Source of the DNA: Spirochaetia bacterium
GTDB lineage: Bacteria > Spirochaetota > Leptospiria > Turneriellales > JAOUOS01
DNA length: 64,000 nt
Direction: 5' to 3'
Assembly: GCA_029880265.1 (NCBI GenBank)
Contig: JAOUOT010000010.1
Coordinates: forward strand, 1 to 64,000
A program made the position numbers and the translations under genes. This document shows, one piece after another, positions 1,183 through 64,000 of the stretch. The notes beneath the pieces are model-generated. The model saw nothing but the letters and a program-made list of their open reading frames with translations. It was not told where the DNA came from and did no database searches. The stretch's first letter is position 1. Each line of letters begins with the position of its first letter.

Positions 1183-1300
1183 TAATGACCTGTCTTAAAA
1201 TAGACTATAAGCAGTCAATTTTTAATATAAATAAACAAAAATTTTAACTTGTAAAAGCAAAGCTATTTTTTTTTATAGCATTTAATAAAGAACATTAATT

Positions 1301-2200: not shown

Positions 2201-2248
2201 GAATCATTATAAATTAGCATAAAAGAAAAAAGAATGAGGAGAATTAAA

Positions 2249-3250
2249 ATGAAGAAGATATTATATTTATTACTGATAGGCCTTATTGCGTTTTCAAGCA
2301 TGGGATTTTCAAGGGTGCAAACCATTAAAATGGGAACTTTGGCTCCCGAGGGTTCGGTATGGCATAACGCGCTTAGAGAAATGGGCGAAGAATGGCAGAG
2401 GGTCTCAGACGGTAATGTTCGTATGCGTTTATATTCGGGTGGGGTCGCAGGCGACGAAATGGATATGGTTAGAAAAATGCGAATAAGCCAGCTTCATGGG
2501 GCCGCTCTTACCGGTAACGGTCTTGCGGGAATTGCTCAAGAAAACGCCATTTTTCAAATGCCCATGTTTTTAAGAACAGACGAAGAACTTGATCATGTTC
2601 TGCATGAATTATCTCCGAAAATTGAAAAAATTATGGAAGAAAAAGGCTTCAAGCTTCTTTACTGGTCAGAGATAGGCCGAGTATATTTATTTTCAAATAA
2701 ACCGGTAGTAACGCCTGAAGATTTAAAGCCGCTTAAAATATGGGTTTGGACAGGAGACGCCGTTTGGGCAGACGCTTTAAAAGATCGCGGCTATAAACCG
2801 GTGCCTTTGCCGTCAACAGAAATACACACAGGTTTAAGCTCGGGTCTTATTGATACTGTATCGGCCCCTCCTGTCGCCGCTTTATCTTATCAGTGGTTCG
2901 GTCTCGCGAAAAATATGATGTCTATGAAATGGGGGCCTTTAACGGCAGCCGTTGTCATATCAAAAAAAGAGTGGGAAAAAATTCCGGCAAATTTGCGTCC
3001 TCAAATACATGCAGCCGCCGTAAAGGCAGGCGCGGGCGCCAAAGAGCGAATTAGAAAACTTGAATCTGAAGCAATCAAGGCCATGCAGGGTTACGGGCTA
3101 AAGGTAAATAAAGTAAGCCCGCAAGTTGCGGCAACATGGCAGTCTGAAATAGAAAAAACATATCCCAATTTATTAGGAAAGTCTATTCCAAAAGAGATTT
3201 ATCAAGAGGCCTCTAAAATATTAAAAGAGTTTCGAAAGAAAAATAAGTAA
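2249..3250 (+). CDS. tatP: TRAP transporter substrate-binding protein (DctP family, TatP-like)
   Basis: This is a periplasmic extracytoplasmic solute receptor of a tripartite ATP-independent (TRAP) transporter. After a signal peptide (MKKILYLLLIGLIAFSSMGF) comes the DctP fold: IKMGTLAPEGSVWHNAL, GGVAGDEMDMVRKMR, then LKIWVWTGD and the PLPSTEIHTGLSSGLIDT stretch typical of the ligand cleft. The ORF track starts at 2234, but a clear AGGAG lies at 2237-2241, eight bases before the ATG at 2249, so the true start is MKKILYL. It sits between the TatT lipoprotein and DctQM, and its stop codon is directly followed by the permease ATG, which implies translational coupling. The TatT neighbour makes a TatPT-type system likely. 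The substrate is unknown. Confidence 0.92.
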   Translation: MKKILYLLLIGLIAFSSMGFSRVQTIKMGTLAPEGSVWHNALREMGEEWQRVSDGNVRMRLYSGGVAGDEMDMVRKMRISQLHGAALTGNGLAGIAQENAIFQMPMFLRTDEELDHVLHELSPKIEKIMEEKGFKLLYWSEIGRVYLFSNKPVVTPEDLKPLKIWVWTGDAVWADALKDRGYKPVPLPSTEIHTGLSSGLIDTVSAPPVAALSYQWFGLAKNMMSMKWGPLTAAVVISKKEWEKIPANLRPQIHAAAVKAGAGAKERIRKLESEAIKAMQGYGLKVNKVSPQVAATWQSEIEKTYPNLLGKSIPKEIYQEASKILKEFRKKNK

Positions 3251-36173: not shown

Positions 36174-39100
36174 ATGAAAATTAAAAGACATTTTACCAAG
36201 GCAAATCAAGATATTTATAAAAATATATTATTTGAAAAAAGGCGTTCGCAGATAAAAAACGCCGACAGCTCGCTTCTTTATGAGGTAAGCGATGTAGAAG
36301 TTCCGTCGTTCTGGTCGCAGGTTGCGACAGATATTCTGGCGCAAAAATACTTTCGAAAAGCGGGAATTCCCAAGTTTAGAAGAAAAGTTCCTGAAGAAGG
36401 TATGCCCGAATGGCTTCAAAAAAGCGAGCCCGAAGAAGAGGCCTTAAAGAATCTTCCTGAAGAAGAAAGATATACGCGTGAAACAAGCGTAAAAGAAATT
36501 GTTCACCGCCTTGCCGGAACCTGGACATACTGGGGGTATAAGCACAAGTATTTTGATACTGAAGAAGACGCAAGAGCCTTTTATGACGAACTTAGATATA
36601 TGCTTACATATCAAATGGCGGCTCCCAATTCGCCGCAATGGTTTAATACCGGTTTAAACTGGGCATACGGTATAGACGGGCCGTCGCAGGGGCATTTTTA
36701 TGTAGATCCTGTAAGTAAAAAAATGGTCAAATCAAAATCGGCCTATGAACATCCTCAGCCCCATGCGTGCTTTATACAGTCAATTGACGATGATTTGGTA
36801 AATGAAAACGGTATTATGGATTTATGGGTGCGCGAAGCAAGACTATTTAAGTATGGCTCGGGCACGGGAACAAATTTTTCGTCTTTAAGGGGCAAAGACG
36901 AACCCTTGTCTGGCGGCGGTAAAAGTTCGGGCATGATGAGTTTCTTAAAAATCGGAGACGCGGCTGCAGGTGCCATAAAATCGGGCGGCACCACGCGAAG
37001 AGCGGCTAAGATGGTCGTGCTTGATATAGATCATCCCGATATTGAAGATTTCATCAACTGGAAGGTCGTCGAAGAAGAAAAAGTCGCGGCTCTTGTTGCG
37101 GGGTCAAAACAGATAAAAAAATCTATCACAGAAATCATGCATGCAGTCGCCGGATGCAAAGAAAATCCCGAGTTGTTAGATATTAAGAAAAACCAGAAAT
37201 TAAAAACCGCTTTGATTACGGCCAGAGAAAAGAGCGTTCCCGACAGTTATATTCAGCGCCTTTTAGAGTACGCAAAGCAGGGGTATACCGATGTTGAGTT
37301 CCCCGAATATAACGCCGACTGGAACAGCGAAGCTTACCAGACCGTAAGCGGGCAGAATTCTAATAATTCTCTAAGGTTAAACAACGCTTTCTTAAAAGCT
37401 GTTGAAGAAGACAGAACATGGGATTTAATTCGCAGAAAAGACCGAAAAATAAGCAAAACGTTAAGAGCCCGCGATTTATTTAACCAGGTATCATACGCGG
37501 CATGGTCGTGCGCCGACCCCGGCGTTCAGTTTGACACCACTATCAACGAATGGCACACATGCCCTGAAGACGGCAGAATTAACGCTTCAAACCCTTGCAG
37601 CGAGTATATGTTTTTAGACGATACGGCGTGCAATCTTGCGTCTTTAAATTTATTGAAATTTTACGACGAAGAAAAGAACAAGATGAATCTTGACTCTTAT
37701 ACTTACGCGATTCGCTTGTGGACAACCGTGCTTGAAATCTCTGTTTTAATGGCGCAGTATCCTTCAGAGAAAGTTGCCGAACTTTCATATAAATTTAGAA
37801 CATTGGGCCTGGGTTATGCCAATCTTGGTTCTTTGCTTATGGTATCGGGCATTCCTTATAATTCAATGGCGGCAAACGCGATTACCGGATGTTTATCGGC
37901 AATTATGACCGCCGTAAGCTATAAAACAAGCGCCGAGATGGCAAAAGAACTCGGGGCCTTCGAAGGGTATAAAAGAAATAAAGAAAGCATGCTTCGGGTA
38001 ATGCGAAATCATAAAAGAGCCGCATATAGTTCAGACGCCAAAGAGTTTGAAGGCTTGAGTGTTCTTCCTACGGGCATCAGCGAAAAGGCGGCTCCTCAGT
38101 ACTTGTTAGACGAGGCAAAAAAGTCATGGGATGAAGCGGTGCAGTGGGGCGAACAATACGGATACCGTAATGCTCAAACAACTGCCATTGCCCCTACGGG
38201 TACGATAGGTCTTTTGATGGACTGCGACACTACGGGCATTGAGCCTGATTATGCGCTGGTAAAATATAAGACTCTGGCAGGCGGGGGATATTTTAAGATT
38301 GTGAACAAGTCTGTTCCTCAAGCTTTGAGTAAGCTTGGTTACGCAAAAGATGAAATAACCAAAATACAGGAATACATGATAGGCAGCGGAACATTTGAAA
38401 ACGCTCCTTATATTAATACAAAAACCTTAACAGAGGCAGGCTTTGATCTGGCAACCATTGAAAAAATGGAAAAAGCTCTTTCAACGGCTTTTGATTTAAG
38501 TTATGTGGTAAACAGATGGGTTGTTGAAGATTCGTTTTTAATCAATAATCTCAATATATCTGAAGAAATGTTTAAAGACCCTTCGTTTGATCTTCTGCGC
38601 CATTTGGGGTTTTCAGACGAGCAGATTCAAAAGGCAAGCGAAGTGATTTGCGGCACAATGATGATTGAAGGCGCTCCTTTTATTAAAAAAGAGCATCTGG
38701 CGGTTTTTGACTGCGCTCAAAAATGTGGTAAAACCGGCAAGCGATATATTCCCTATCAGGCGCATATTCAAATTATGGCGGCCGCCCAGCCTTTTATATC
38801 GGGGGCCATTTCAAAAACGGTAAACATGCCGCATGATTCGTCTATTGAAGACGTAAAAAACGCATATCTTTCTTCATGGAAGTTAATGCTGAAATCAAAC
38901 GCCTTATACCGCGACGGTTCGAAACTCTCGCAGCCTTTATCTTCTCTCGGCGAAAGCATATTCTCTGAACTTGAAGAAGATACTTCTGAAATACTTTCAT
39001 CGGCTGTTATGCAAAAATCAGAAATGCTTGCCGAAAAAGTAATTCAATATATCGCTCAAAGAAAGAAACTGCCTCAAAGAAGAAGCGGTTATACGCAAAA

Positions 39101-39731
39101 GGCCGTTATCGGCGGTCATAAGGTATATCTAAGAACGGGCGAATATGAAGACGGATCTCTTGGCGAAGTTTTTCTTGATATGTACAAAGAAGGGGCGGCC
39201 TTTAGAAGTTTAATGAACGGTTTTGCCATCGCGATATCGCTTGGCTTGCAGTACGGCGTTCCTCTTGAAGAGTTTGTTGAAGCTTTTGTTTTTACCAAAT
39301 TTGAGCCAAACGGTATCGTTCAGGGTAACGACCGCATTAAAATGACTACATCGATTATGGATTATATTTTTAGAGAACTTGCTATTACATATTTGGGCCG
39401 GCATGATTTAGGTCATGTGCTTCCCGAAGATTTGATTTCTGAAACGGCTAAAGATAAATCGATAAAAGAAGAAGTATCAAAAATTCCGTCGCCCGACGAC
39501 GATAATTTAAAAAAAAGCGTCTCTAAAACACCCGAGGGAAGCCCCGTTCTAAAGAAAACCGTTCTTGTTAAATCGAAGTCTTCGGTTCGCGAAGAGGCGG
39601 CTAAAATAAGAGAAGCGCGCCTGAAAGGCTATGAAGGCGAGATGTGTCCCGAATGCGGTCAAATGACCTTGGTAAGAAACGGTTCTTGTCTGAAATGCGA
39701 AACCTGCGGAGGCACCACGGGTTGTTCTTGA
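36174..39731 (+). CDS. nrdJ: Adenosylcobalamin-dependent ribonucleotide reductase (class II)
   Basis: NrdJ reduces ribonucleotides to deoxyribonucleotides with a radical from coenzyme B12 and needs no oxygen. At 1185 residues it is the large NrdJ type. Visible are [32 protein letters not shown] with the first reducing cysteine, [15 protein letters not shown], the radical site [20 protein letters not shown], and [20 protein letters not shown]. The C-terminus ends in a zinc-ribbon with redox cysteines ([23 protein letters not shown]). No N-terminal ATP-cone is evident. The gene has a good promoter and ribosome-binding site. The B12 nucleotide-loop genes cobS/T/U/C lie at the end of the same window, consistent with its cofactor need. 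Confidence 0.96.
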
Positions 39732-39761: not shown

Positions 39762-41291
39762 GTGATTGAGAAAAAACCCGTAGTCTGCTTAATCGGCTGC
39801 GGCCGAACGGGCGGTCTTTTAATAGATCGCCTGAAAGATACGTGGCAGCTTACCGTTATCGATAAAAATCCGCTGGAGCTCAAAAAGCTTAAGGCAAAAT
39901 ATTCAGATTCAGATATTTTATTTCACGAAGGCGACGCCGTAAGCTACATTGAGTTAAAAAAAGTCGATATAGAAAAAGCTTATCAAATTATAATAACCGT
40001 CGATAAAGACGCCGTTTCTATTGAAATATTAAAAGTTTTATTAAACCGATTTCAGAAAAAAAATATCATTTGCAGATTAAGCGATTCGAACATTGCGCAT
40101 CAGATGAGAAAAAAGGGCGTTTATGTTATCACCCCTTATGAAACGATGGCCAATATCATCATTAACCAGATGAACTTAGGCGAAGTTGTCGCTTTAAATA
40201 TAGGCAAAGGAGAAGGCGAAATACTTCAAATTGAGCTGACAAAAAGTTCGCCTATCGTAGGCAGGGTTTTGCGGGAACTTCCTCCTAAGAACTGGCTTAT
40301 CGGGGCCATTTATCGTCCAAAAAAGAAATTAAAGTATAAAACTGAAATGCCTTATTTTCAAAAATTTCAAATTTCAAACGAAGACGAACTTATTATTCCT
40401 TCGGGTGATACCGTTCCTAAAGTGGGCGATAAACTTATCTTAATCGGAGATCCGCATATACTTCGCTCTACCGCTCAGTATTTAAAAGCGGGGGCCCCTG
40501 TTTTTCCCGTTCGTCACGGCGAGCTGGTCGTTACATTTTTTCATTCAAAAAAAATTGAATCTGAAGTTTTTAAAGAATATATGTGGCTTTTAGAAAATAT
40601 GGAGCCCGCTCGAATGCTTTATTTTTATAACCATGATTCGATAAGCGATTTTATTAAGAATATAAAGCTGCCAAAAAACTGGGACGATAAAACCGAAGCC
40701 AGAAAAGAAGCTTATAAAATACCTCTGAGAAAAAATCTCGATTATATCAAAAATCTGGTTAAAACAGAAAGAATAGGCCTGATAATATATCCGGAACCAT
40801 CGGGATGGTTTGAAAAAAGAATTCACAGATATTATTTATTTTCATCTCTTAAGAAAGTACTGCGCAAAAATTCAATTCCGCTTTGGATCATTCGAAATAA
40901 GGCCCCTATAAAAAAAGTAACTTTAATGGTCGCTCCTCATGAAGGTACTCTTGAAGCGGCAGAGCTGGCTATTGACGCAGCCATGAAATTTAAACTTGAA
41001 TTTCGAGCGGTTCAGGTAAATCCGCCGGGCTTGATAGCCGGTAATTTACAGCTTGAAAGCGCTAAGAAAATGATGCAGTCGGTCTATGAAGTCGCGATTA
41101 TGTACGGGTTATCGGTTCAAGAAAACGTATTTACGGGAAACCCCGTAAAAGAAATTATTAAATGGGTGTCAAAAGACGAACTTTTGGTTTTATCTCTTCC
41201 TAAAGACAGCAAAAGCGGCGTGATGATACCGAACAGCGCTAAACTTTTAGCGAAAAAATTCCCCGGAAGTCTTTTAATCTTAGCCACGTAA
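39762..41291 (+). CDS. RCK (TrkA-N/TrkA-C) and UspA-like regulatory protein of an ion transporter
   Basis: This is a 509-residue cytoplasmic protein. The N-terminus is an NAD(H)-binding RCK domain (VVCLIGCGRTGGLLIDRL, VIDKN). A TrkA-C domain follows near residues 145-240 (IELTKSSPIVGRVLREL, GDKLILIGDP). The C-terminal part has UspA-like features (KKVTLMVAPHEGTLEAAELAIDAA, SVQENVFTGNPVKEIIKW). RCK proteins gate K+ channels and K+/H+ antiporters in response to nucleotides. The next gene, 10 bp downstream, is a CPA2 antiporter lacking its own RCK domain, so this is most likely its regulatory subunit. The start is GTG at 39762. Confidence 0.85.
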   Translation: MIEKKPVVCLIGCGRTGGLLIDRLKDTWQLTVIDKNPLELKKLKAKYSDSDILFHEGDAVSYIELKKVDIEKAYQIIITVDKDAVSIEILKVLLNRFQKKNIICRLSDSNIAHQMRKKGVYVITPYETMANIIINQMNLGEVVALNIGKGEGEILQIELTKSSPIVGRVLRELPPKNWLIGAIYRPKKKLKYKTEMPYFQKFQISNEDELIIPSGDTVPKVGDKLILIGDPHILRSTAQYLKAGAPVFPVRHGELVVTFFHSKKIESEVFKEYMWLLENMEPARMLYFYNHDSISDFIKNIKLPKNWDDKTEARKEAYKIPLRKNLDYIKNLVKTERIGLIIYPEPSGWFEKRIHRYYLFSSLKKVLRKNSIPLWIIRNKAPIKKVTLMVAPHEGTLEAAELAIDAAMKFKLEFRAVQVNPPGLIAGNLQLESAKKMMQSVYEVAIMYGLSVQENVFTGNPVKEIIKWVSKDELLVLSLPKDSKSGVMIPNSAKLLAKKFPGSLLILAT

Positions 41292-41301
41292 AATTTAAAC
41301 T

Positions 41302-42525
41302 ATGAAAGAGTTTGCCTTATATCTTTTTATCTTCAGTGTAGGCGCGTTTGTAATTCCTATTCTCAGTCGTTTTATAAGAATTCCCATCTTAGTCGGAGAA
41401 ATTATATACGGAATGCTTTTAAGATTGTTTTTATATGAACAAAACATTGATTTTAGCCTTATTAATTTTCTCTCAGATATGGGTTTTATTTTTATTATGT
41501 TTTTAGCCGGCTTAGAAATTAACTTTGATAACTTAAAATTAAAGCAGATGTTTAAATCAGGTTCGATGGTTTTGATATATTACGTCGCAGCCGTTTTGAT
41601 TTTTGCGTTTTTTTTCGAATCAAAAAAAATCTTTATTTTAATTTTACTGACAGCGTCTTCGGTGGGCATTATTTTTTTGGGCTTAAAATCAAATAAAACC
41701 GAAAGCGATTCTCTGGGCCAAACTCTAATATGGACAGGCACCTTAGGAGAGCTTTTAAGCATTGTTCTTCTTATGATATTTGAGCTGTATCATTTTCATG
41801 AAAATTCGTTATCGTTAGATTTTGCTCTCGATATTTCGGGTATTATATTGCTTCTTATTGGCGCTTATGTTCTAATAAGGCTGGTACTTCTTTTCTTATG
41901 GTGGTTTCCTGAGTCTGTAGAGCTCTTAGAAGAATCGGGCGACGTTTCTGAGCTGGGCGTAAGGTTGTCTTTTCTGGTTTTATTAACAATGGTCGCTCTG
42001 TCGGCTTATTTTAATCTTGAATTTATCATCGGAGCGTTTTTAGGCGGCATGATGCTTTCTTTTGTTTTTAGAGATAAAAAAATTCTGGAACAAAAGCTGT
42101 CTTCAATAGGCTACGGGTTTTTTATTCCTTTCTTTTTTATGAAACTGGGCTGGGATTTCAATCTTGATATAAATAATCTATCTAAAGTCTTTCTGTTGGC
42201 CTTTCAAATGTATTTTTATATTTTCTTAACCCGATTTGCCGCTTCTGTGATACTAATTCGCGATTATCCCGAGTTTAGTTTAATCGATAAATTTAGAACG
42301 GCGTTAGCGGGATCATTTTTATTGGCGGCGCCTTTAACCATTCTAGTGGCCTCGGCCCAATTGGGTTTTAAAATCGAAGAGATAGACGAAATAACATATA
42401 AATCGTTTATTCTTTGTTCCATGATAGGCGGATTTTTGGGTCCTTTGGGATATTCTTTTTTCTACCCCAAAGATTCTTATTTTCGTTTAAAAAGAGCGCG
42501 AAACAAATCGACAATTCTGTCTTGA
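41302..42525 (+). CDS. CPA2-family monovalent cation:proton antiporter
   Basis: This 407-residue inner-membrane protein has about twelve membrane segments in the KefB/NhaA-like CPA2 arrangement. Typical stretches are IPILVGEIIYGMLL in the first helix pair, SDMGFIFIMFLAGLEINFDNL, LLTASSVGIIFLGLKSNK, and FNLEFIIGAFLGGMMLSFVF. It lacks the cytoplasmic TrkA-N domain found at the C-terminus of KefB/KefC, which here is supplied by the separate upstream gene. Together they probably form a K+ or Na+/H+ antiporter gated by nucleotide. The ion cannot be decided. The ATG follows the RCK gene by 10 bp. Confidence 0.87.
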   Translation: MKEFALYLFIFSVGAFVIPILSRFIRIPILVGEIIYGMLLRLFLYEQNIDFSLINFLSDMGFIFIMFLAGLEINFDNLKLKQMFKSGSMVLIYYVAAVLIFAFFFESKKIFILILLTASSVGIIFLGLKSNKTESDSLGQTLIWTGTLGELLSIVLLMIFELYHFHENSLSLDFALDISGIILLLIGAYVLIRLVLLFLWWFPESVELLEESGDVSELGVRLSFLVLLTMVALSAYFNLEFIIGAFLGGMMLSFVFRDKKILEQKLSSIGYGFFIPFFFMKLGWDFNLDINNLSKVFLLAFQMYFYIFLTRFAASVILIRDYPEFSLIDKFRTALAGSFLLAAPLTILVASAQLGFKIEEIDEITYKSFILCSMIGGFLGPLGYSFFYPKDSYFRLKRARNKSTILS

Positions 42526-43020: not shown

Positions 43021-46000
43021 ATGCTTGAATTTATCCTTCCGTTTTTTGGTTCTGTAAGCGTATTTTTGCTTTTAAGAAGACTTGATAAATCAAATTTAAA
43101 TTTAAGAAAGCTTAAAACAATCATTGAAAGAGAGCAGAAAGAAATAATTGAGATAGCGTTAAAGAAAAAAGAAGAGTTAAAAGACGCTACCACCGATTTT
43201 GATCTTATACAGGTAAATTCGGCAAAGTATCTTGAAAAAATCAAGGGCGAGCTTGAAACCGCAAAACATTCCATAACCGAAGTCGAACATCGTCGCCTTG
43301 AGCTTATCGGCATGGGCAAAGATTTGCAAATTCTTGAAGAAACCACTATATCTGTAAAAGAACAGTTAAAATTTATAAACGATTCTCTTGATAGAGTAGA
43401 CAGTCACCATAAAAAGGTTAAATGGCTTGAAGAACATATAAAGGCGATTGACGACGACGCGACAAGAATGGTTCAAATATTTCAAAGTTCGCTAAAAGAA
43501 AAATCTGACGAGATGAGCGAGTTTCTCGAAAAGAAAGTCGAAAAGATGAGTCTTGAAACTATCGAATATCAAAAAGAATTAAGAGAAGCGGTTATTGAAA
43601 AGCAGGAAGATTTATCTAAAAAGATTTCGGCCGATTATAAAGACCTTGAAGTTGTTCTTAAAAAAAGCGCGAAACAGCTTACCGACGAACTTGAAAAACG
43701 CATTGATACATATTTTTCTCAAATAAACGAAATGAGTTCGCGCATCGAGGTAAACGAAGAAATCATTCAAAATAGAATTCCCTCAATGGTTGAAGATATC
43801 AAAAATTCTCTAAAGACAGACCTGTCGACCGAAGAAGAAAAGCTTGAAGCCGTAAAAATTGAAATGGAACGGCTTGAAGAAAATTTAATCAAGAAGCTAA
43901 ACGCCTTTAAAATTGAAATGGAATCTCACAGGGCGGCTTTGTTTGGCGACGTCTCTGAAGAAGCCGAGAATATTCGAAATCAAATTCAAAATCTTGATTT
44001 AGAGGCTCTCGCGAAAAAAGACGAACTGATAAAGGCGACCAGGGCCGAAGCGAAAAAAGTCGAAGGCTATATTTATAAACTTGAAGAATTTTATCAAAAA
44101 GCAGGCGAGGGTTTATTTAATACCGCCAAAAAGAAAGAAGATGAAATCGAAAAAAAGACAATGGCTTTTGAAGAAAAAAGCTCCGAAGCGTTGTCTGATA
44201 TTTATGAAATGAAAAAAGAGATTTTTTCACAGGTTAAAAGTACCGTTGAAGAAACCCTGCAGGAAATTGAAGCAAGGGCGGGCAAAATTTTAGACGTTAA
44301 CTTTGATTCGGTTGAAAACAGGGCCGAAGAATTAAAAACTCAAATCGGTAAAAATATTTCTGAACTCGAAAATGTCGTGAAAAACTCAATTGTAGAAATT
44401 GAGAAACGCTCAAATGAAATCTTGAAAAATAATTTCGCCGATGTATCGGGCGAAGCCGAAAAACTTCGGCTTGAAATGCATAAAAATACTCAAGAGATTG
44501 AAGAGGCTGTCGGCGAAGCCTTATCTCATATTGAAAATAAAACAATGCAGATGTTAAAAGAAAACGGCGGCGATTTTCAAAAAGAAATAGAAACGGCTCG
44601 AGATGAACTAAAGCATAATATCGCAGCGTTTGAAAATATGCTTGAAGAAGCTCTTATTCATATTGATGAAAAAGCCGAAAGTCTTATTAAAGATAATAAC
44701 GATAAGTTTTTCAAAGAAATAGACAGGGCCAAACTTGAGATTGCAAACAGCTTATCTGCAGTTGAAGAATTGGTCGAGAATGCGTCTTCTGAAATTCAAA
44801 ATAAAACAAAAGAAATAATTTCTGAAAATATAGAAGTCATAACGGCTGAAAAAGACAGCTTTTCAATAAATGCGAAAGAGATTTCTCTTTTAATAGAAAA
44901 TTCTCTTGAAGAGGCTATAGCAAGCATTAAAGAAAAATCAGAACAATTGGCCCAAGCAAGCTACCATTCTTTTTTTGAAAAAGCCGAAAAGCTTCAGCAT
45001 GATATAAGAAAAGATCTCTTGCAGATAAATGAGTCTCTTGAAAACGCGTTGCGTCAAATTGAAGAGAAAACTCAGTCGGCTGTGTCGTTTAATATCGAGA
45101 ATATTGCAAAAGAAATTGAACAGCTGCAGGCCGAGGCCAGCGAAAACATTTCTATGATTGATAACGCGTTAAACGAGGCTATGGCTAAGATTGAAGAAAA
45201 ATCGAACGACTTTTTATCAATAAGCAAAAATGACGTTATTAAAGAAATTGAACAATTAAAAGTATTATCTAAAGAAAACGTTTCTTCTATTGAAGAAACG
45301 TTTCAAAAAGCAATTGCGGCAATTGAAGAAAAATCGGCTCAAGTAACAGAACTGCAATCAAAAGATATTAATTCTGAAGCCGAAAAAGCAAAATTAGAAA
45401 TAGAAGAGCAGGCCGCTTTATTTAGCGAAGAAATAAACAAAAATATTCATGAAATAAGCGATAAGTCTTCAGAATTATTTGAACAGCATAAGGCCGATTT
45501 TGATAAAAATACCCTACAGTTGTCTTCTGAATATGAAATTATAAAATCGCAATTTGAAGAAATTCATAAAAATTTAATTGATAAGTATACGGCAATAGAA
45601 GAAAAAATTCATCTTTTAAATTCAGAGTCAGAAACACATTTCTCTGAATATCTAAAAAAACTACAAGAAGCGCAAGAGTTAAGCGCCGGCGAGTTTGCCC
45701 GACAGCATGACGATTTTATAAAAAAAGTAGATATTATAACCGACGAAATAAGCCTGAAATTAGAATCTATTAATGAAATAGAAGAGGGCGTCAAGAATAC
45801 ATGCGAACAGTATTTGTCAAAAGTCAATGAATCGGCGAAAGACGCATTGTCTGACATTTCAAATTACGCCGAAGACTTTAAGCAAACAGCTCTGCAAATA
45901 AACGACGAACTTCTTGAACTGCTTGAAAAAAATCAAGAAGCCGAACCTTCTCTTAAACAGCATTTTGATAATTTATTAAACGAGCTTCTCGCGACCCAAG

Positions 46001-48645
46001 GGGCGGCAAAAGAAGAAATTAATTTAATGATAGAAAACCTAACCTCATCGGGCAGCGGTATAAAAAACGAAATTATTGAATACGCTCAAAATGCAAGGGC
46101 GTTTGAAGAAACCTTAAAGAATAATTTTGACGAATATCTAGATGATATTAAAGAAGCCGAGGCTGCGGCTAAAGAAAATATCGGCAAGAATGTTGTTGAA
46201 TTTGATAATTTTGTCGCAGAGGCTAAAAACGAGATATTGTCGAATGTAACGCAGGCAGATGACCGGTTCAATGACCTTGATAACCGTATTGGGTCATATG
46301 CGCAAAATATCAGAGATTTTGAGAAAGAAGCCGAGACTGTTTTTAGCGATTCAAGAAAACAATTTGAAGTTATGGCAAAGGGCGTTATCGAAAATATAAA
46401 TTCGCATCTTCAAAAACTTGAATCTTCAGAAGATATTCTTGATAAAAAACTCCATGAATATTCCGTTCTTTTAAAAAACTCAGAAAAGATATCGCGCGAA
46501 GATCTTAAAAAGCATTCTGACGAATTGATGAAAATATCTTCTAACATAATGTCAGAATTTAACGCAAGCTTTAATAAGTTTGAAGGTTTCGAAAAACAAT
46601 TTAACGGACAATACGAAGAGTATCTCGCAAAACTAGAGGCCTCTGAAAAAAATTCTAAAAATGAAATAAATAAACAAATAAAAACGCTTGAAGATCGCCT
46701 GCTTAAGGCAGATAAATTTGAAGAAAATCTGCAAGAAAAGCTGGATGATTTTGGGGTGCAGGTTGAAGAATCGACAAAAGACGCTAAAAAACAATTTGAT
46801 AAGTATCTGTTTGAATTGAAAACTTCATCACAGGCGTATAAAGAAGAGTTTGAAAATGAACTTAACGAACAATATTTGAAAATCTCTGAACAAATAGCGG
46901 CTCTAGAAGACGATATGAAAGATATTCATGAGAAATCAGGTTTAGATTTTGGCAAGAAAGTTCAAGACGTTTATTCTAAAATACAGCTTGTCGAGAAAAA
47001 TCTTTTACAGTCTCAAGAAATGCTGGTTAAGAAATGGGATGAAGACGCCGGAGTCGTTCTTAAAAGAATTGAAGAAAAAGAAGCTCTTTTTGAGCAAAGC
47101 GCCGAAAAATGGCAGACAAAACTCGAGACAAACTTTCAATCGGTTCGCGAAGATATACATAAGAAATATATTGAATTAGAGAAAAAAGGCTCTGAAATAT
47201 CTTCAGGCATTGAAAATCAGATTGAAAATGAAATTCTGCGCATAAAAGAGATGTCTGAAGAAAAGCGAAAAGAAAATGAAGAAAGTATGGCCGTTTCTGT
47301 AAACGCATTTAAAGATAAAATTATTCAAAAAGAAAATCAGGTACTCGAAGATTTAAACCAATTTTCGGGTAAAATTCAAGCATTTAAAACAGAATTTGAA
47401 AGCGGAAATTCTAAGTTAATACAGATCATTGAAGACGAGAAAAAGAAAAAAGTAATTGAAATTCAAAGCATTGCCGAAAAACAGCTGAATCTTTTCAGCG
47501 AAGAAATGGATACCATTGCGTCTTCATATTTAAGCGATTTTAGCGAGAAGTCAAAAGAAAATCTCGAAAATATATCGTCGATTCAAGAAGAATTAGAAAG
47601 TTCTCTGGCCGAATTCAGAGAAAAACAGCAAGATGTAATGTCGTCTATTGTAGACGAAACTGAAAAAACCGGAGATGAAATTCAGTTTCTGCAAGATATG
47701 CTTAAAGAACTGAAGCAAGAAACAAAAATCGCTCAAAAAGCGCAGGCAAGCGCTTCTGAGATAAGAAAACTTATCTCAGAATTTGACCAAAAGTTAAAAC
47801 TTGTAAAAGAGAAAAATACAAGTTTAGACGAAATATTCGCCAAGGTTGAAAGCATGAAAGATCTAAGGGTGCGCCTAGATTCTGAGCTAGCCGTGATTTC
47901 TCAAAAAAGAGATAAGGTCGACAAATTAGAAGAACAGCTTCAGTTAATATTAAATTTAAGAGATGAAATTGAAGAAAAAGGCGAAAGTTTAGAGCGCATA
48001 AACGAGAAAGTAAACGAAATAAGTTCCGTATATAAAAACTTATCGACAGAGAAAGAGAATCTTGACGAAGTATTAAATGAATTTATGAACCAGCATAAAC
48101 TTGTCGAAAAAGCGATTGAATCTATCGGCTCTCAAAATAAAGGCATCGAAAACCTGCAGGAACAATTTGCCCATCTATCGGGGCTGCTTGAAAAACTAGA
48201 CAATAAGACTTCTGTTATGAACGGCGAAGTTGAAGAGCTTTCAGAGCAAATGAGCGCGTTAAAAAAACACGAAAGCGAAATAGAAGACGTCAAGAAGAAA
48301 TTTCTTGAAATTGAAGATTTAATAGAAGACGTTGATAAGCGAAAGCAGCAGATAGATATACTAAAGAAAAGATTCGACGAGTTAAGATTAGAGATGACCT
48401 CAAGCGTTGAGGCTATTGAAATGATAGAACAAAACGCCGAATCTAAAGTTAAAAAAATGTCAGAATTTATTTCGGCTGTCGACGAAAAGTTATCTTCGCC
48501 TAAGATTGTCAAAGATTTTGGGGTAGGCGATAAAAAAGAAGTCGTATTAAGATTGGGCAAAATGGGCTGGACAGTAGACGAGATTGCCGATAAAATCAAT
48601 ATCGACAAAGGCACAATTGAAACAATCATTTCGACTTTTGATTAA
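43021..48645 (+). CDS. Giant SpiroCoCo-type coiled-coil protein
   Basis: This protein has 1874 residues. A single N-terminal hydrophobic segment (LEFILPFFGSVSVFLLL) is followed by over 1700 residues of nearly uninterrupted coiled coil rich in Glu, Lys, Ile and Leu, with almost no Pro, Cys or Trp. Residues 412-851 consist of ten tandem 44-residue units (see separate entry). The last 40 residues (VVLRLGKMGWTVDEIADKIN then IDKGTIETIISTF) form a helix-turn-helix-like tail. This layout matches the spirochaete-specific SpiroCoCo family, whose role is not established; a cell-body filament or envelope tether is a reasonable guess. Its length would span a few hundred nanometres if extended. It is followed by recG after 52 bp. 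Confidence 0.88.
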   Translation: MLEFILPFFGSVSVFLLLRRLDKSNLNLRKLKTIIEREQKEIIEIALKKKEELKDATTDFDLIQVNSAKYLEKIKGELETAKHSITEVEHRRLELIGMGKDLQILEETTISVKEQLKFINDSLDRVDSHHKKVKWLEEHIKAIDDDATRMVQIFQSSLKEKSDEMSEFLEKKVEKMSLETIEYQKELREAVIEKQEDLSKKISADYKDLEVVLKKSAKQLTDELEKRIDTYFSQINEMSSRIEVNEEIIQNRIPSMVEDIKNSLKTDLSTEEEKLEAVKIEMERLEENLIKKLNAFKIEMESHRAALFGDVSEEAENIRNQIQNLDLEALAKKDELIKATRAEAKKVEGYIYKLEEFYQKAGEGLFNTAKKKEDEIEKKTMAFEEKSSEALSDIYEMKKEIFSQVKSTVEETLQEIEARAGKILDVNFDSVENRAEELKTQIGKNISELENVVKNSIVEIEKRSNEILKNNFADVSGEAEKLRLEMHKNTQEIEEAVGEALSHIENKTMQMLKENGGDFQKEIETARDELKHNIAAFENMLEEALIHIDEKAESLIKDNNDKFFKEIDRAKLEIANSLSAVEELVENASSEIQNKTKEIISENIEVITAEKDSFSINAKEISLLIENSLEEAIASIKEKSEQLAQASYHSFFEKAEKLQHDIRKDLLQINESLENALRQIEEKTQSAVSFNIENIAKEIEQLQAEASENISMIDNALNEAMAKIEEKSNDFLSISKNDVIKEIEQLKVLSKENVSSIEETFQKAIAAIEEKSAQVTELQSKDINSEAEKAKLEIEEQAALFSEEINKNIHEISDKSSELFEQHKADFDKNTLQLSSEYEIIKSQFEEIHKNLIDKYTAIEEKIHLLNSESETHFSEYLKKLQEAQELSAGEFARQHDDFIKKVDIITDEISLKLESINEIEEGVKNTCEQYLSKVNESAKDALSDISNYAEDFKQTALQINDELLELLEKNQEAEPSLKQHFDNLLNELLATQGAAKEEINLMIENLTSSGSGIKNEIIEYAQNARAFEETLKNNFDEYLDDIKEAEAAAKENIGKNVVEFDNFVAEAKNEILSNVTQADDRFNDLDNRIGSYAQNIRDFEKEAETVFSDSRKQFEVMAKGVIENINSHLQKLESSEDILDKKLHEYSVLLKNSEKISREDLKKHSDELMKISSNIMSEFNASFNKFEGFEKQFNGQYEEYLAKLEASEKNSKNEINKQIKTLEDRLLKADKFEENLQEKLDDFGVQVEESTKDAKKQFDKYLFELKTSSQAYKEEFENELNEQYLKISEQIAALEDDMKDIHEKSGLDFGKKVQDVYSKIQLVEKNLLQSQEMLVKKWDEDAGVVLKRIEEKEALFEQSAEKWQTKLETNFQSVREDIHKKYIELEKKGSEISSGIENQIENEILRIKEMSEEKRKENEESMAVSVNAFKDKIIQKENQVLEDLNQFSGKIQAFKTEFESGNSKLIQIIEDEKKKKVIEIQSIAEKQLNLFSEEMDTIASSYLSDFSEKSKENLENISSIQEELESSLAEFREKQQDVMSSIVDETEKTGDEIQFLQDMLKELKQETKIAQKAQASASEIRKLISEFDQKLKLVKEKNTSLDEIFAKVESMKDLRVRLDSELAVISQKRDKVDKLEEQLQLILNLRDEIEEKGESLERINEKVNEISSVYKNLSTEKENLDEVLNEFMNQHKLVEKAIESIGSQNKGIENLQEQFAHLSGLLEKLDNKTSVMNGEVEELSEQMSALKKHESEIEDVKKKFLEIEDLIEDVDKRKQQIDILKKRFDELRLEMTSSVEAIEMIEQNAESKVKKMSEFISAVDEKLSSPKIVKDFGVGDKKEVVLRLGKMGWTVDEIADKINIDKGTIETIISTFD
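44254..45573 (+). repeat. Ten exact 44-residue (132-bp) tandem units in the coiled-coil gene
   Basis: From residue 412 the protein splits into ten consecutive units of exactly 44 residues, starting TLQEIEAR, SIVEIEKR, ALSHIENK, ALIHIDEK, ASSEIQNK, AIASIKEK, ALRQIEEK, AMAKIEEK, AIAAIEEK and NIHEISDK. Position 5 is Ile and position 8 is Lys or Arg in all ten, with no insertion or deletion over 1320 bp. Forty-four is four times eleven, fitting hendecad coiled coils. The DNA copies have diverged widely, so the period is kept by selection on protein structure. Confidence 0.85.
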
Positions 48646-48697: not shown

Positions 48698-50755
48698 ATG
48701 ACCCCTATAGCTGAACTTTCTTTTTTATCATCGGCGCAAAAAGCCGCTTTTAAAAAAAGGGGCGTTAATAATATTCGCGATCTTTTGTTTTATTTTCCGC
48801 GAAAATATATTGATCGAAATAAAAAACTTGAAATAAGCAAAATTCAACCCGATGAAATTGTCACATTCATCGGGTTGATTCAGGCCGCAAAAGTAAATTA
48901 TGGCAGAAAAAGAAGATTATCGATTACATGCGTTTATGAAAGAAATCTTATCGAAATTACTTTTTTTCAGAGAATTTCTTATTATCAAAAAATATTAAAA
49001 CCCGGCGTCGAGGCCGCGTTTTCAGGAAAAATAGATTTATTCAGGGGCAGACTGTCAATGACGCATCCCGAGTTTGAAATCGTAACAGAAGACGACTTTA
49101 TTCATACGGGAAAAATAATTCCTGTTTATAAAATTACCGAATTAATGCAGAAAAATTTTCTCACAAGCAGAGTAATTAGAGATACCGTTCATAAAGTATT
49201 GAAAAAATATTCGGTTTTTATCGAAGAATATTTGCCCAATGATATTATAAAGAAATACGAATTTCAAAGTCTATCGTCTTCTATTGAAACGATGCATTTT
49301 CCCGGGTCATGGGAAAATCTATCGGCGGCGAAAAAGAGACTCGCCTTTGACGAGCTCATCGTTTTTTCTTGTATTATGCATGAAGAAAAAGAAAACAGAA
49401 AAAAAATTAAAAAAAAATATAATATAAATTCAAGAGAGTCGGCTAAATACGAAAAAAATATATTAGAGAACCTGTCTTTTAAGTTGACCAAAGATCAACA
49501 AAAAGCCTGCGATATTTTATATTCTTTGTCTGAGAAACCGTATCCGTTTGCCGCTTTGCTGCAGGGCGATGTCGGCTGCGGAAAGACGCTGGTAGCTTTG
49601 CTTTCGGCTATTCATTATTGTGAAGCGGGAATTCAAACGGCGCTTATGGCGCCTACCGAGATTTTAGCCAGACAGCATTACAAAAATTTTTTGTCTTATC
49701 TTTCGTCTGTTCCGTTTTTTCCTATTGATATATTATTGGGTGCAGAGAAGGCTAAAGAAAGAGCTTCTAAACTTGAAAGGCTCAAACGCGGAGAAACAAA
49801 GCTTATCATAGGAACGCATAGTCTATTTCAAAATGACGTCGCTTTTTATAACCTCGGTTATGTTATTATTGACGAACAGCACCGCTTTGGCGTTGAGCAA
49901 AGAGAGGCCCTAAGAGCAAAAGGCGAAAACCCTGATTTGCTGGCCATGACCGCGACGCCTATTCCCAGAAGTCTTACGCTTACGCTGTACGGAGATTTAG
50001 AGACCGTTCTTATCAAAGAAAAACCCGCCGGCAGAAAGCCTATTGAAACAAAGCTTTTTGACGAATTTGAACTTTCTCGCCTGTATAAAGGCGTTAAAAA
50101 ATATGTGGATGAAGGCAGGCAGGCGTATATCGTTTATCCGGTAATTGACGAAAGCGAAAATATTGCGTGGGCCTCATTAATGGCAGATTATGAAAAACTG
50201 GAAAAAAATGAATTTAAAGGTTACCGTTTAGGCATTTTGCACGGACGTTTAAGCGGCGAAGAAAAAGAAAGGGCTATGCAGAAATTTAAAGAAGGGCTCA
50301 TTCAAATTCTTATCGCTACAACGGTCGTAGAGGTCGGGGTTGACGTTGCTAACGCTACGGTAATGCTGATTAGAAACGCTGAAAGGTTCGGCTTATCGCA
50401 GCTGCATCAGCTTAGGGGGCGCGTAGGCAGAGCAGACTTAAAAAGTTTTTGCATACTCGTAAAATCAAACAAAATAACCATAGAGGCCGAAAAAAGATTA
50501 GAAGCGATGATAGAATCTGAAGACGGATTTTATTTGGCGCAAAAAGATCTTGAAATAAGGGGCCCCGGAGAGCTTTTAGGCATAAAGCAGGCAGGTTTTT
50601 CAGAATTTAAGGTCGCAGACTTAAGATATCATTCAGACCTGGCAGAAAAAGCAAATCAGACAATATTAGAAGTTCCGTCTCTTCGAGAAAAAATTAAATC
50701 AATTAAAAACTGGCAAAAAGATTTAAAAAAAGGGTTTCTTATTATGCAAAACTAA
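48698..50755 (+). CDS. recG: ATP-dependent DNA helicase RecG
   Basis: RecG regresses stalled replication forks and branch-migrates Holliday junctions. The 685-residue protein is complete. It has an N-terminal wedge/OB region (FYFPRKYIDRNKKLEISKI, VTFIGLI), Walker A in LLQGDVGCGKTLVALL, motif Ia APTEILARQHY, motif II as DEQHRFGV (DEQH), motif III MTATPIPRSLTLTLYGD, and LIATTVVEVGVDVANATVM with QLRGRVGRADLKSFC toward the C-terminus. It follows the giant coiled-coil gene by 52 bp and converges with prmC with only four bases between their stops. The ATG start agrees with the family N-terminus. Confidence 0.96.
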   Translation: MTPIAELSFLSSAQKAAFKKRGVNNIRDLLFYFPRKYIDRNKKLEISKIQPDEIVTFIGLIQAAKVNYGRKRRLSITCVYERNLIEITFFQRISYYQKILKPGVEAAFSGKIDLFRGRLSMTHPEFEIVTEDDFIHTGKIIPVYKITELMQKNFLTSRVIRDTVHKVLKKYSVFIEEYLPNDIIKKYEFQSLSSSIETMHFPGSWENLSAAKKRLAFDELIVFSCIMHEEKENRKKIKKKYNINSRESAKYEKNILENLSFKLTKDQQKACDILYSLSEKPYPFAALLQGDVGCGKTLVALLSAIHYCEAGIQTALMAPTEILARQHYKNFLSYLSSVPFFPIDILLGAEKAKERASKLERLKRGETKLIIGTHSLFQNDVAFYNLGYVIIDEQHRFGVEQREALRAKGENPDLLAMTATPIPRSLTLTLYGDLETVLIKEKPAGRKPIETKLFDEFELSRLYKGVKKYVDEGRQAYIVYPVIDESENIAWASLMADYEKLEKNEFKGYRLGILHGRLSGEEKERAMQKFKEGLIQILIATTVVEVGVDVANATVMLIRNAERFGLSQLHQLRGRVGRADLKSFCILVKSNKITIEAEKRLEAMIESEDGFYLAQKDLEIRGPGELLGIKQAGFSEFKVADLRYHSDLAEKANQTILEVPSLREKIKSIKNWQKDLKKGFLIMQN

Positions 50756-61167: not shown

Positions 61168-61905
61168 CTATAAAATAAGAATCGCGCAAAAAAATAAGAT
61201 AAGGGTTTCGATTATTTCGTTAGAGGCTCCTAAAAGATCTCCGGTCACTCCTCCTATTTTTTTATAAAACCAGAAACCCAAAAGAGCGGTAAAAAGCATG
61301 CCGCCTGATAAAAAAGCAACGCCTGTAAAATTTAATAATACGTACAGCGTAAGCGCCGATACCATAAGCGCCGCAACAAAATGAGCGGTTTTCGCCCGCG
61401 TAACAATGTTATATCCTGTGCCTTGAGATCTGGCATATGGCAGAAAAACCGCCAAGAGAACCATTCCCGTGCGCGAAATAGCAAAAGGCATAAATAAAAA
61501 CATTTCATTATTATGATCTATCAGCCTGGCAATAGAAATAAGTTTTATAAGCGGTATTAAAAGTAAGGCAATCATTCCGAAGACGCCTATATGCGTATCT
61601 TTCATAATGGCGAGAATTTTATTTTTTTCATAGGCTCCGAAAAAACCGTCGGCCCAATCGGCAAGCCCGTCTAAATGCAAACCTCGGGTAAAAATAACGC
61701 TTAACAATAGAATGAAAACGGCAATCAGCTCAGAAGATACTACGTTTGCCGTTTTGAATATTAAAACAGAGAGCCAAAATAATAAAGATAAAAAAAATCC
61801 AATCGCGGGAAACCAGATAAGCGATTGAGCGTAATTATCTTGGCTCTTGCCGGGCAAATTAAAAACGGTTAGCGTTCGTAATGCCGTGAGAAAAGAAGAA
61901 TACAT
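61168..61905 (-). CDS. cobS: Adenosylcobinamide-GDP ribazoletransferase
   Basis: CobS joins alpha-ribazole (phosphate) to adenosylcobinamide-GDP, forming the lower ligand loop of cobalamin. The 245-residue membrane protein has the family signature RGLHLDGLADWADGFFGAYEK near residue 75, then MKDTHIGVFGMIAL, and five or six membrane segments, with GGVTGDLLGASNEIIET at the C-terminus. It overlaps cobT by one base (TGATG), so translation is coupled. As the last gene of the minus-strand cob cluster it lies 54 bp before the AddB-like gene. The length is normal. Confidence 0.95.
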   Translation of the reverse strand: MYSSFLTALRTLTVFNLPGKSQDNYAQSLIWFPAIGFFLSLLFWLSVLIFKTANVVSSELIAVFILLLSVIFTRGLHLDGLADWADGFFGAYEKNKILAIMKDTHIGVFGMIALLLIPLIKLISIARLIDHNNEMFLFMPFAISRTGMVLLAVFLPYARSQGTGYNIVTRAKTAHFVAALMVSALTLYVLLNFTGVAFLSGGMLFTALLGFWFYKKIGGVTGDLLGASNEIIETLILFFCAILIL

Positions 61906-62960
61906 CAGCTTTTTTCGGTTACCCCCGCAGAAGAGAAAGTGGCCATTTCGTTATAAATCTTAATTGACGCTTCTATGATAGAAATTGCCAAAGCAGCGCC
62001 GGTTCCTTCGCCAAGGCGCATGTCTAAATTTAAAATAGGTTTCTCGTTTAATTCTTCGAGTAATCTTATGTGTCCCTTTTCTTTAGAAAGGTGGCTGAAA
62101 AAAAGATAATCTTTGATATCTTCATTCAGACGTACGGCCGTTAAAGCGGCGGCTGATGATATAAATCCGTCGACAACAACGGGAATTTTACGAATTGCGG
62201 CGCCTAGAATAAGCCCTAAAATTCCCGCAATTTCAAAACCTCCGACAGATGTTAAAACTTCAAGAGGGTTTTTATCTTTCGCGTTATTGATTTCAAGGGC
62301 TTTTTCAATGATTTCAGCCTTTATTTTTATTTTATCTTCAGAAAGACCTGTTCCCGCGCCTGTTACGTCGTATACGGGGCAGGGCAAAAGGCACGCGTAA
62401 ATAGCCGAAGAGGGGGTCGTGTTGGCAATGCCCATCTCTCCTGTGCCAAGAATATCAACTCCCTTTTCTGCGGCGGCCTCTGCGCAGTCTATGCCCGCTT
62501 TTATCGCCTGAAGACATTCTTCTTCGGTCATAGCGGGGCCCTTGAGCATATTGGCTGTGCCTTCTTTTACTTTCTTTTTTTCTAACAGGGGATGATCTGC
62601 AAATTCATTGATAACGCCGATATCGACAATTACATTTTCAATGCCCCCGTGTTTTGACAGAACATTAACGGCGGCTCCTTCGGTTATCATATTTAAAACC
62701 ATCTGGTAAGTTACCGCCTGCGGAAAAGCCGACACGCCTTCTTCGGCAATACCGTGATCGCCTGCAAAGGTATAAATCGCCTTTTTTTGCAAGGCCGGTT
62801 TTGTTGTATTCTGAATTAAACAGAATTTTTCTGCGAAATTTTCAAGCCTTCCGAGACTGCCCTGTGGTTTGGTTAAGTCGTCTTGATGTTTTTGAATTTC
62901 TTCTTTTAAGTTTTTATCTGTCGGATTTATGTTTTTAGCAAGTTCAATTATCTCTTTCAT
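61905..62960 (-). CDS. cobT: Nicotinate-nucleotide-dimethylbenzimidazole phosphoribosyltransferase
   Basis: CobT activates the lower base (for example dimethylbenzimidazole) with phosphoribose from nicotinate mononucleotide. The 351-residue sequence has QDDLTKPQGSLGRLENFAEK, TFAGDHGIAEEGVSAFPQAV, ILGTGEMGIANTTPSSAI, VLTSVGGFEIAGILG, and the catalytic Glu region LDMRLGEGTGAALAIS. The ATG is preceded by AAGGA. It lies between cobU and cobS in the usual order. All features of an active enzyme are present. The lower base used by this organism cannot be told. Confidence 0.96.
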   Translation of the reverse strand: MKEIIELAKNINPTDKNLKEEIQKHQDDLTKPQGSLGRLENFAEKFCLIQNTTKPALQKKAIYTFAGDHGIAEEGVSAFPQAVTYQMVLNMITEGAAVNVLSKHGGIENVIVDIGVINEFADHPLLEKKKVKEGTANMLKGPAMTEEECLQAIKAGIDCAEAAAEKGVDILGTGEMGIANTTPSSAIYACLLPCPVYDVTGAGTGLSEDKIKIKAEIIEKALEINNAKDKNPLEVLTSVGGFEIAGILGLILGAAIRKIPVVVDGFISSAAALTAVRLNEDIKDYLFFSHLSKEKGHIRLLEELNEKPILNLDMRLGEGTGAALAISIIEASIKIYNEMATFSSAGVTEKS

Positions 62961-62973
62961 TTTTTTTCCTTTT

Positions 62974-63489
62974 TTATTTAATTTTTAAGGGCAGTCCGCT
63001 TACCATAAAGTAAGCCTCGCCCGATTTTTGCGCCGTTTTTTGATTTAGTGTTCCCATCTCGTCTCTAAACTGGCGCGCTATTTTGTTTTCGGGAACAATT
63101 CCCATGCCTAATTCATTGCTGATAATAATGAGAGGCTTTGAAAAAGAGCATAAAGATTTCAGAAAAAAATCAATTTCAAACGCTCTTTCTTTTTCATCTT
63201 TTACAAATAAATTCGAAAGCCAAAGCGTTAAACAGTCAATAATTACAACGTCATATTGTTCTTGAATATTTAACAAGACAGGGCCAAGGCGGTATGGCTC
63301 TTCAATCGTCAGATAGCTTTTATCTCTTTGGGCCTTGTGAAGCTCGATTCTTTGTTTCATCTCGTTGTCGCAAGCTTCAGCCGTGGCAATATATATCTTA
63401 TTTTGGTACGAAGAGGCCAGGGTTAAAGCGTAACCGCTTTTTCCGCTTCTTGCGCCGCCGGCTATGTATATTATGTTATTTTTTTTCAT
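62974..63489 (-). CDS. cobU: Adenosylcobinamide kinase / guanylyltransferase
   Basis: CobU phosphorylates adenosylcobinamide and adds GMP, making adenosylcobinamide-GDP. I start at ATG 63489 rather than the ORF-track 63528, because MKKNNIIYIAGGARSGKSGY places the P-loop (GGARSGKS) at the usual position, and the upstream codons belong to the end of cobC. The following IYIATAEACDNEMKQRIELH and RDKSYLTIEEPYRL carry the guanylation His region. VVIIDCLTLWLSNLF and IISNELGMGIVPENKIARQF are typical of the family. It overlaps cobC by 14 bp and is followed by cobT. Confidence 0.95.
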   Translation of the reverse strand: MKKNNIIYIAGGARSGKSGYALTLASSYQNKIYIATAEACDNEMKQRIELHKAQRDKSYLTIEEPYRLGPVLLNIQEQYDVVIIDCLTLWLSNLFVKDEKERAFEIDFFLKSLCSFSKPLIIISNELGMGIVPENKIARQFRDEMGTLNQKTAQKSGEAYFMVSGLPLKIK

Positions 63490-64000
63490 AGGTAATATTA
63501 AGAGCCGAAAGGGTTCCGTATTTTTCAAATAAGTTTAAAATACTTAAAGAACCGGTGCTTACCTGAAAAGCCGCATATTTTTGATAAGGAATTCCCAGAA
63601 AACGGCAGAGAAGAAAAGTGATAACACCCTTATGGGCGACGGCCGCAATTTCTTTGTTTTTACTTAAAATAAAGAAATCGGCCAGTTCTTCAATGCGTTT
63701 AATGAAGTTTTTAACGCTTTCGCCTTCGGGAAATGCGAAGTTTTCAAAATCGTTTTCCCATTTATTAATCATCTCTTTATTCTTTTTTGTTATTTCTTTG
63801 AGGCGCTGATTTTCCCAAAGGCCAAAATCTATTTCGCATAGTTTTGGCAGAGATTCTATTTTTCTGTCTTTAAATAGTATTTCTGCCGATTGTCTGGCCC
63901 TTAGCAACGGGCTGTGCAGTATAAGGGCGTTTTCAGATAACTTAAATTGCGCGGCCATGGTTTCCATTTCTCTTACGCCAGATTTCGTTAAAGGCAGATC
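63476..64000 (-). CDS. cobC: Alpha-ribazole phosphatase / histidine phosphatase (CobC), 5' end outside the window
   Basis: This is a partial histidine-phosphatase-superfamily protein; the frame is open to the right edge (DLPLTKSGVREMETMA upstream of the ORF-track Met), so the N-terminal RHG motif lies outside. The visible part has LHSPLLRARQSAEIL, LCEIDFGLWENQRLKEI, the catalytic Glu region FPEGESVKNFIKRI, and VAHKGVITFLLCRFLG with the second catalytic His. CobC removes phosphate from alpha-ribazole phosphate in cobalamin loop assembly. Its place directly before cobU, with a 14-bp overlap, makes CobC more likely than phosphoglycerate mutase. Confidence 0.88.
   Translation of the reverse strand, partial: DLPLTKSGVREMETMAAQFKLSENALILHSPLLRARQSAEILFKDRKIESLPKLCEIDFGLWENQRLKEITKKNKEMINKWENDFENFAFPEGESVKNFIKRIEELADFFILSKNKEIAAVAHKGVITFLLCRFLGIPYQKYAAFQVSTGSLSILNLFEKYGTLSALNITYEKK

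Follow-up and report, generated by a model that had tools for sequence, protein, structure and literature searches.

The window, meaning the whole 64,000-nucleotide stretch of DNA analyzed here, carries the gene for a giant SpiroCoCo coiled-coil protein with recG as its downstream neighbor (Table 1), and recG adjoins the SpiroCoCo gene across the order to which this genome belongs. The gene is single copy in its own genome, as judged from one match to the N-domain. Upstream of it, positions 39762-42525 encode a TrkA-domain protein and, after it, a sodium/hydrogen exchanger, and a B12-dependent class II ribonucleotide reductase is encoded at 36174-39731. Toward the far end, genes at 61168-63528 look, by reading only, like CobS, CobT, and CobU of cobalamin synthesis.

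Table 1. Coordinates of the SpiroCoCo gene, its parts, its neighbor and related loci (window positions unless a locus is named)
Feature	Position	Strand	Basis
SpiroCoCo coiled-coil protein, 1874 aa	43021..48645	+	ORF; NF047515 SpiroCoCo_C 131.9 bits, cut-off 125
N-terminal transmembrane segment MLEFILPFFGSVSVFLLLRR	43021..43080	+	Sequence
SpiroCoCo_N domain, residues 5-219	43033..43677	+	NF047514 69.3 bits; NF047516 69.3 bits
Coiled-coil segment, residues 220-411	43678..44253	+	Hydrophobic period 3.625
Array of ten 44-residue units, residues 412-851	44254..45573	+	Hydrophobic period 3.665 (11/3)
Second periodic segment, residues 870-1290	45628..46890	+	18/54-residue periodicity, hydrophobic period 3.600 (18/5)
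Coiled-coil segment, residues 1290-1543	46888..47649	+	Period 3.645
SpiroCoCo_C domain, residues 1543-1870	47647..48630	+	NF047515
C-terminal helix-turn-helix, residues 1836-1873	48526..48639	+	AlphaFold2 bundle; Pfam over 50 relatives; PDB folds
recG, downstream neighbor	48698..50755	+	RecG_wedge, DEAD, Helicase_C
Short TM-coil-DUF6115 protein, L192	2375-2896	-	Flagellar operon near flhF/flhG
Short TM-coil-DUF6115 protein, L193	8006-8626	+	Flagellar operon near flhF/flhG
Short TM-coil-DUF6115 protein, L194	6322-6885	-	Flagellar operon near flhF/flhG
Short TM-coil-DUF6115 protein, L195	5321-5875	+	Flagellar operon near flhF/flhG
Short TM-coil-DUF6115 protein, L196	8535-9176	+	Flagellar operon near flhF/flhG
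f47 proteins with acidic ends, L119, L122		+	Proteins read
f47 proteins with acidic ends, L117, L120, L121, L123		-	Proteins read

The first-pass annotation had named the product a spirochaete SpiroCoCo protein, and the profile searches agree: the C-domain exceeds its cut-off when scored directly and reaches 137.8 bits in the genome search. The N-domain falls just under the NF047514 cut-off of 75 bits with a full-length alignment (1-219/221), its NF047516 match is over the cut-off of 36, and relatives that are 41-72% identical align across all 230 residues; identity with the nearest relative is 72-75% in this domain. Between the two end domains runs a central coiled coil whose length varies among homologues. 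The transmembrane segment (TM) is followed by RR, with R19, R20, and D22 invariant in the window's order. Because these basic residues come after the TM, the sequence suggests that the rest, and hence the bulk, of the protein is cytoplasmic. The coil of the C-domain (47647-48390, residues 1543-1790) has a period of 3.455, more left-handed than a heptad; in G347, a 38-residue repeat near the C-terminal part (38/11 = 3.4545) may be compared with this value.

The 44-residue array and the variation of the rod

It had been proposed that the array consists of ten gap-free units of 44 residues, each of four hendecads and with Ile at position 5 and Lys or Arg at position 8 throughout. The observation of ten units is confirmed, with coordinates that are exact: the units are in phase, Ile occupies position 5 in 10/10 and position 8 is basic in 10/10 (8 K, 2 R). 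The dominant autocorrelation lags are 44 and 88, with 28% identity and a mean BLOSUM62 score of 1.22 at lag 44, while the next best lag scores 0.12. This periodicity has a z of 16.1 against 2000 composition shuffles and still 10.9 against shuffles retaining the hendecad position of each residue, and the pattern therefore amounts to more than four equal hendecads. Profiles built from nine units recovered the tenth in all ten cases at 9.4-40 bits, the background maximum of 5-11 bits lying below the unit's own score in every scan. In the Fourier analysis that had been suggested as a check, harmonics of 44 account for 59% of the spectral power in hydrophobicity and for 34% of that in charge, where 10% is expected.

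The view that other positions vary freely proved wrong. All ten units have a hydrophobic residue at positions 12, 20, 27, and 38, position 25 is acidic in 9/10, position 9 is S/T/A in 10/10, and position 16 is Asn in 6/10. The mostly hydrophobic seam follows positions 2, 5, 12, 13, 20, 24, 27, 31, 38, and 42, and the polar or small stretch at 9 and 16 occurs once per unit. The hydrophobic peak lies at 11/3 with none at 3.5, the period that a heptad filament of the intermediate-filament type would have. The expected nearly straight coiled coil is thus borne out, as is the figure of about 6.5 nm per unit, which follows from the standard helix rise.

At the DNA level the units are on average 45% identical (62% at codon position 2, 36-39% at positions 1 and 3), and Tandem Repeats Finder has no entry at the array. 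This absence of a DNA repeat excludes recent tandem duplication as its origin; as the units have next to no similarity in their DNA, the array is an old one maintained by pattern rather than by recent copying. AlphaFold2 predicts the array to be helical at low confidence (mean pLDDT 48.8), and this model was left out of the argument. Matches to SMC/Rad50 are generic coil noise far under the cut-offs.

The nearest relative (G121, locus L075) starts its array at the same residue and has eleven in-phase 44-residue units, followed directly by the same 18/54 periodicity. Position 5 is I/V/L in 11/11 of its units, and K/R at position 8 is retained in only 6/11, so the regular surface Lys/Arg of the window's array is lost there. 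Between these two genera the ends are about 70% identical and the arrays 25-30%, and the only indels are of 44, 11, and 1 residues. The array is specific to the window's family, f1. Elsewhere in the order there is no 44-mer array: two proteins have 69-residue units, and the others have short rods with about 1000 residues in total. Across the family unit lengths are lineage-specific (22, 33, 44, 54, 66, 69, 77, 109, and 120 residues), with mixtures of 22, 44, 66, and 121 elsewhere in the phylum, and protein length ranges about fourfold, from about 900 to 3550 residues. Three proteins (L106, L107, and L108, in G296, G346, and G305) reach 3414-3548 residues as almost pure hendecad rods of period 3.665 (power about 250-390), roughly 500 nm if straight.

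The constant features are the two conserved ends, a hydrophobic seam that is nearly straight, and indels mostly in multiples of 11. The hydrophobic period of every homologous rod measured is 3.635-3.67 (3.63 in one), with power at 3.5 at background; in the window the array and the segment after it average about 3.63. Of 38 rod indels in disjoint pairs, 24 have a size divisible by 11 (p about 3e-16 relative to 1/11, the pairs being partly non-independent as some share one ancestral event), a bias that slippage of repeats by 33 bases at a time would favor as well. We take this to mean that selection keeps the rod straight and leaves unit length free to drift. Since seam and ends are constant while unit length varies, a straight variable spacer is indicated and a fixed 6.5-nm ruler is unlikely; neither unit length nor unit number is conserved among homologues, and units of variable length in homologues were what the first-pass annotation had named as refuting its reading. 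The window's array is an ordinary, lineage-specific way of building a straight rod, and the first-pass interpretation is partly supported.

A single-protein scan of named genomes returned no relative, and an alignment scan with the N-domain returned 15, mostly named Turneriella, Leptospiraceae, Spirochaetes, or Spirochaetia MAGs, which places the window close to Turneriella. The literature searched yielded no paper using the name SpiroCoCo, and locus-tag searches led to unrelated apicomplexan papers only.

The C-terminal head and its distribution with flagella

The last 115 residues are predicted by AlphaFold2 to form a long helix and then a three-helix helix-turn-helix (HTH) bundle (pLDDT 82.9), and the PDB fold matches of this end are HTH domains (E-values 0.05-0.5, meaningful at fold level only). 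When 50 relatives were compared with Pfam, DUF6115 matched 45/50 (best 1e-9) and DUF2802 28/50 (5e-8); 52-residue pieces of relatives holding the HTH alone gave 3e-7 for DUF2802 and 1e-6 for DUF6115. The window's own HTH scores 20.8 bits against DUF6115, under the gathering score of 27, whereas relatives reach 28-33. For DUF2802 it has no match at E 0.05, and the best relative reaches 30.9 bits (gathering score 33.5). By these profiles, the SpiroCoCo head appears related to DUF6115 and to DUF2802, the domain of FipA.

FipA is a polar-flagellum protein of gammaproteobacteria with the order TM, coil, domain, in which DUF2802 binds FlhF and three residues are invariant, G110, E126, and L129 in Vibrio numbering (PMC11620751). 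At the same spacing (G-x15-E-x2-L), 81 SpiroCoCo heads have G in 73, E in 55, and L in 52, and most Spirochaetia have all three. The window's protein has G, T, and T at these positions, and its order retains G with mostly T and T otherwise. Its genome encodes both FliF and FlhF (FlhF at 201 bits).

Short TM-coil-DUF6115 proteins, close in sequence to the SpiroCoCo head, lie near flhF/flhG in Borrelia-like and Treponema-like genomes, inside the flagellar operons (Table 1), and look like paralogues of it. A TM and HTH protein of this sort in flagellar operons was noted in the FlgV paper (PMC11607428). Other DUF6115 matches outside SpiroCoCo were rejected as operon paralogues, those in G000 and G121 looking LuxR-type and that in G004 sigma-factor-like. 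In the window's class no short operon paralogue was identified, the HTH proteins besides SpiroCoCo being unrelated regulators.

The distribution of the C-domain was followed through 392 spirochaete genomes, with a strong match set at E below 1e-15, FliF as the flagellar marker, and the two sets of matches compared by hand. FlhF (TIGR03499) was discarded as a marker as it also detects related GTPases in every genome, and FliF and FlhA were used instead. A strong C-domain match is present in 326 of the 339 genomes with FliF, and the 13 without one are all fragmented drafts. Seven of the 53 genomes lacking FliF have a strong match; because all seven have FlhA, they are taken as flagellate with FliF lost to assembly gaps and not as true exceptions. 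The C-domain is absent from all of the remaining 46, and the nine of these tested also lack FlhA (9/9). These 46 belong mainly to family f47; the others are G373 and two genomes placed inside f48, which is otherwise flagellate. The RecG tree requires two separate losses (its row for G006, with a branch length of 10, is probably in the wrong frame and lies outside the groups counted), and the C-domain has been lost in at least two independent lineages. The co-loss accordingly rests on about two evolutionary events, which is few.

The N-domain survives in most of the aflagellate genomes checked that lack the C-domain. The f47 proteins read keep the TM and N-domain and carry an acidic tail in place of the HTH; some of these tails are repetitive, for example (EELPET)n or (DEPSDE)n, and a common tail resembles WVEYVPEGEEEEI. 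Since the N-domain persists where the HTH is gone, it is the head and not the anchor that goes with flagella. The gene itself lies outside the flagellar operon, beside recG or a HAD hydrolase. In the literature searched, no description was found of a flagella-linked head in a phylum-wide giant protein. The unexpected tie between head and flagella suggests that SpiroCoCo is a giant relative of proteins known to act in flagellar assembly and placement.

A proposed membrane-anchored rod and its possible functions

Our preferred but tentative reading is of a membrane-anchored, nearly straight, probably cytoplasmic coiled-coil rod that presents a flagella-linked head, a giant member of the flagellar TM-coil-HTH class. 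The repeats, the straight seam, the ends, the HTH similarity, and the co-loss with flagella are observed; we infer the topology, oligomer state, partner, and function that this reading assigns to SpiroCoCo. The conserved N-terminal membrane domain would anchor the rod, and the conserved C-terminal head would comprise coil and HTH, with the 44-residue array as the f1 version of the length-variable middle. Four hendecads would hold the seam slightly right-handed (3.665) and the 18/54 segment slightly left-handed (3.600), together averaging about 3.63, which other lineages attain with other unit lengths. The polar or small core stretch once per 44 residues (S/T/A at 9, Asn at 16) probably holds the chains in register. 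SpiroCoCo may then place, count, or activate periplasmic flagella away from the point where it is anchored in the membrane, a role proposed from the relationship between its head and the DUF6115/DUF2802 domain found in flagellar TM-coil-HTH proteins. Rather doubtful is the more specific version, a spirochaete-specific giant form of FipA/DUF6115 in which a straight rod of 100-500 nm carries the head far from the anchor and each lineage adjusts the rod length by whole hendecads, perhaps to fix where the periplasmic flagella sit with respect to the pole or how many there are. Against a flagellar role stand the location of the gene outside the flagellar operon, the sub-threshold DUF6115 score and two T residues among the three FipA motif positions of the window's HTH, and the small number of co-loss events together with the 13 fragmented flagellate genomes. 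The classical role may also already be filled in Spirochaetia by the short operon protein.

A general cytoskeletal or cell-shape filament, which would stiffen the long cell or organize the membrane with only an indirect link to flagella through helical shape, is unlikely. It would produce the same pattern of co-loss, because flagellar loss accompanies loss of helical shape, and it accords with the phylum-wide occurrence of SpiroCoCo, with a gene outside the flagellar operon, with the N-domain half of the protein that survives in aflagellate f47, and with rods whose estimated length exceeds the cell width and would have to run along the cell. However, the HTH head is common to flagellar-operon proteins, and the head rather than the anchor tracks flagella.

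We consider it distinctly unlikely that the rod is a nearly neutral spacer, its repeats growing and shrinking in hendecad steps under selection only for staying helical. The low identity of the arrays between genera beside well-conserved ends is what such drift would leave, as is the fourfold range in length, but the pattern specific to 44 residues goes beyond hendecads and has been kept at 45% DNA identity. A tether in which the HTH binds DNA and the rod links nucleoid to membrane is improbable: the head is absent from aflagellate genomes, which still segregate their chromosomes, and the related domain of FipA binds a protein, FlhF (PMC11620751), notwithstanding the HTH fold, the PDB matches to DNA-binding domains, and the likely cytoplasmic topology. 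Least credible is the original proposal that the 44-residue units act as docking sites or ruler marks spaced 6.5 nm apart, for which the gap-free, in-phase units of the nearest relative and a charge power on 44-harmonics 3.5 times expectation can be cited, since homologues use many other unit lengths, the two closest genomes differ in unit number (10 and 11), K/R at 8 is not retained, and the conserved positions are mainly core or core-adjacent.

SpiroCoCo is a concrete candidate for a part in how spirochaetes choose the position and number of their periplasmic flagella: it is phylum-wide, retains a head related to that of FipA only in flagellates, and changes its rod by straight-coil increments. 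The rods also provide a natural set of nearly straight coiled coils assembled from units of many lengths.

Among known systems, the window's protein resembles the SpiroCoCo family (NF047514, NF047515) in its C-domain over the cut-off, its N-domain just under, its central coil and its spirochaete phylum, and differs in the 44-residue array confined to f1. With FipA/DUF2802 it shares a single N-terminal TM, a cytoplasmic coil, a related HTH-like domain and, in most relatives, G-x15-E-x2-L; FipA, in contrast, has 163 residues and a coil of about 28, and the window's protein lacks the E and L of the motif. FipA itself has been reported absent from spirochaetes (PMC11620751). The DUF6115 proteins have the TM, the coil, and the same C-terminal HTH, with SpiroCoCo relatives over the Pfam cut-off, but the short operon proteins have 173-213 residues and lie inside the flagellar operon, whereas SpiroCoCo proteins have 900-3550 and lie outside. 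SwrB may resemble SpiroCoCo in architecture, as a lead only. In Bacillus subtilis, this small monotopic protein of the membrane promotes the assembly of flagella (PMC4526659). The apolipoproteins A1/A4/E (PF01442) have an 11/22-residue periodicity that accounts for a match below the cut-off (75 bits against 90); this is convergent amphipathic periodicity with no other support, and homology is rejected. The intermediate-filament-like proteins FilP and crescentin also form long coiled coils in the bacterial cell. Their coils are heptad-based, whereas SpiroCoCo has a period of 3.6-3.67 with 3.5 absent, and carries in addition a membrane anchor and an HTH.
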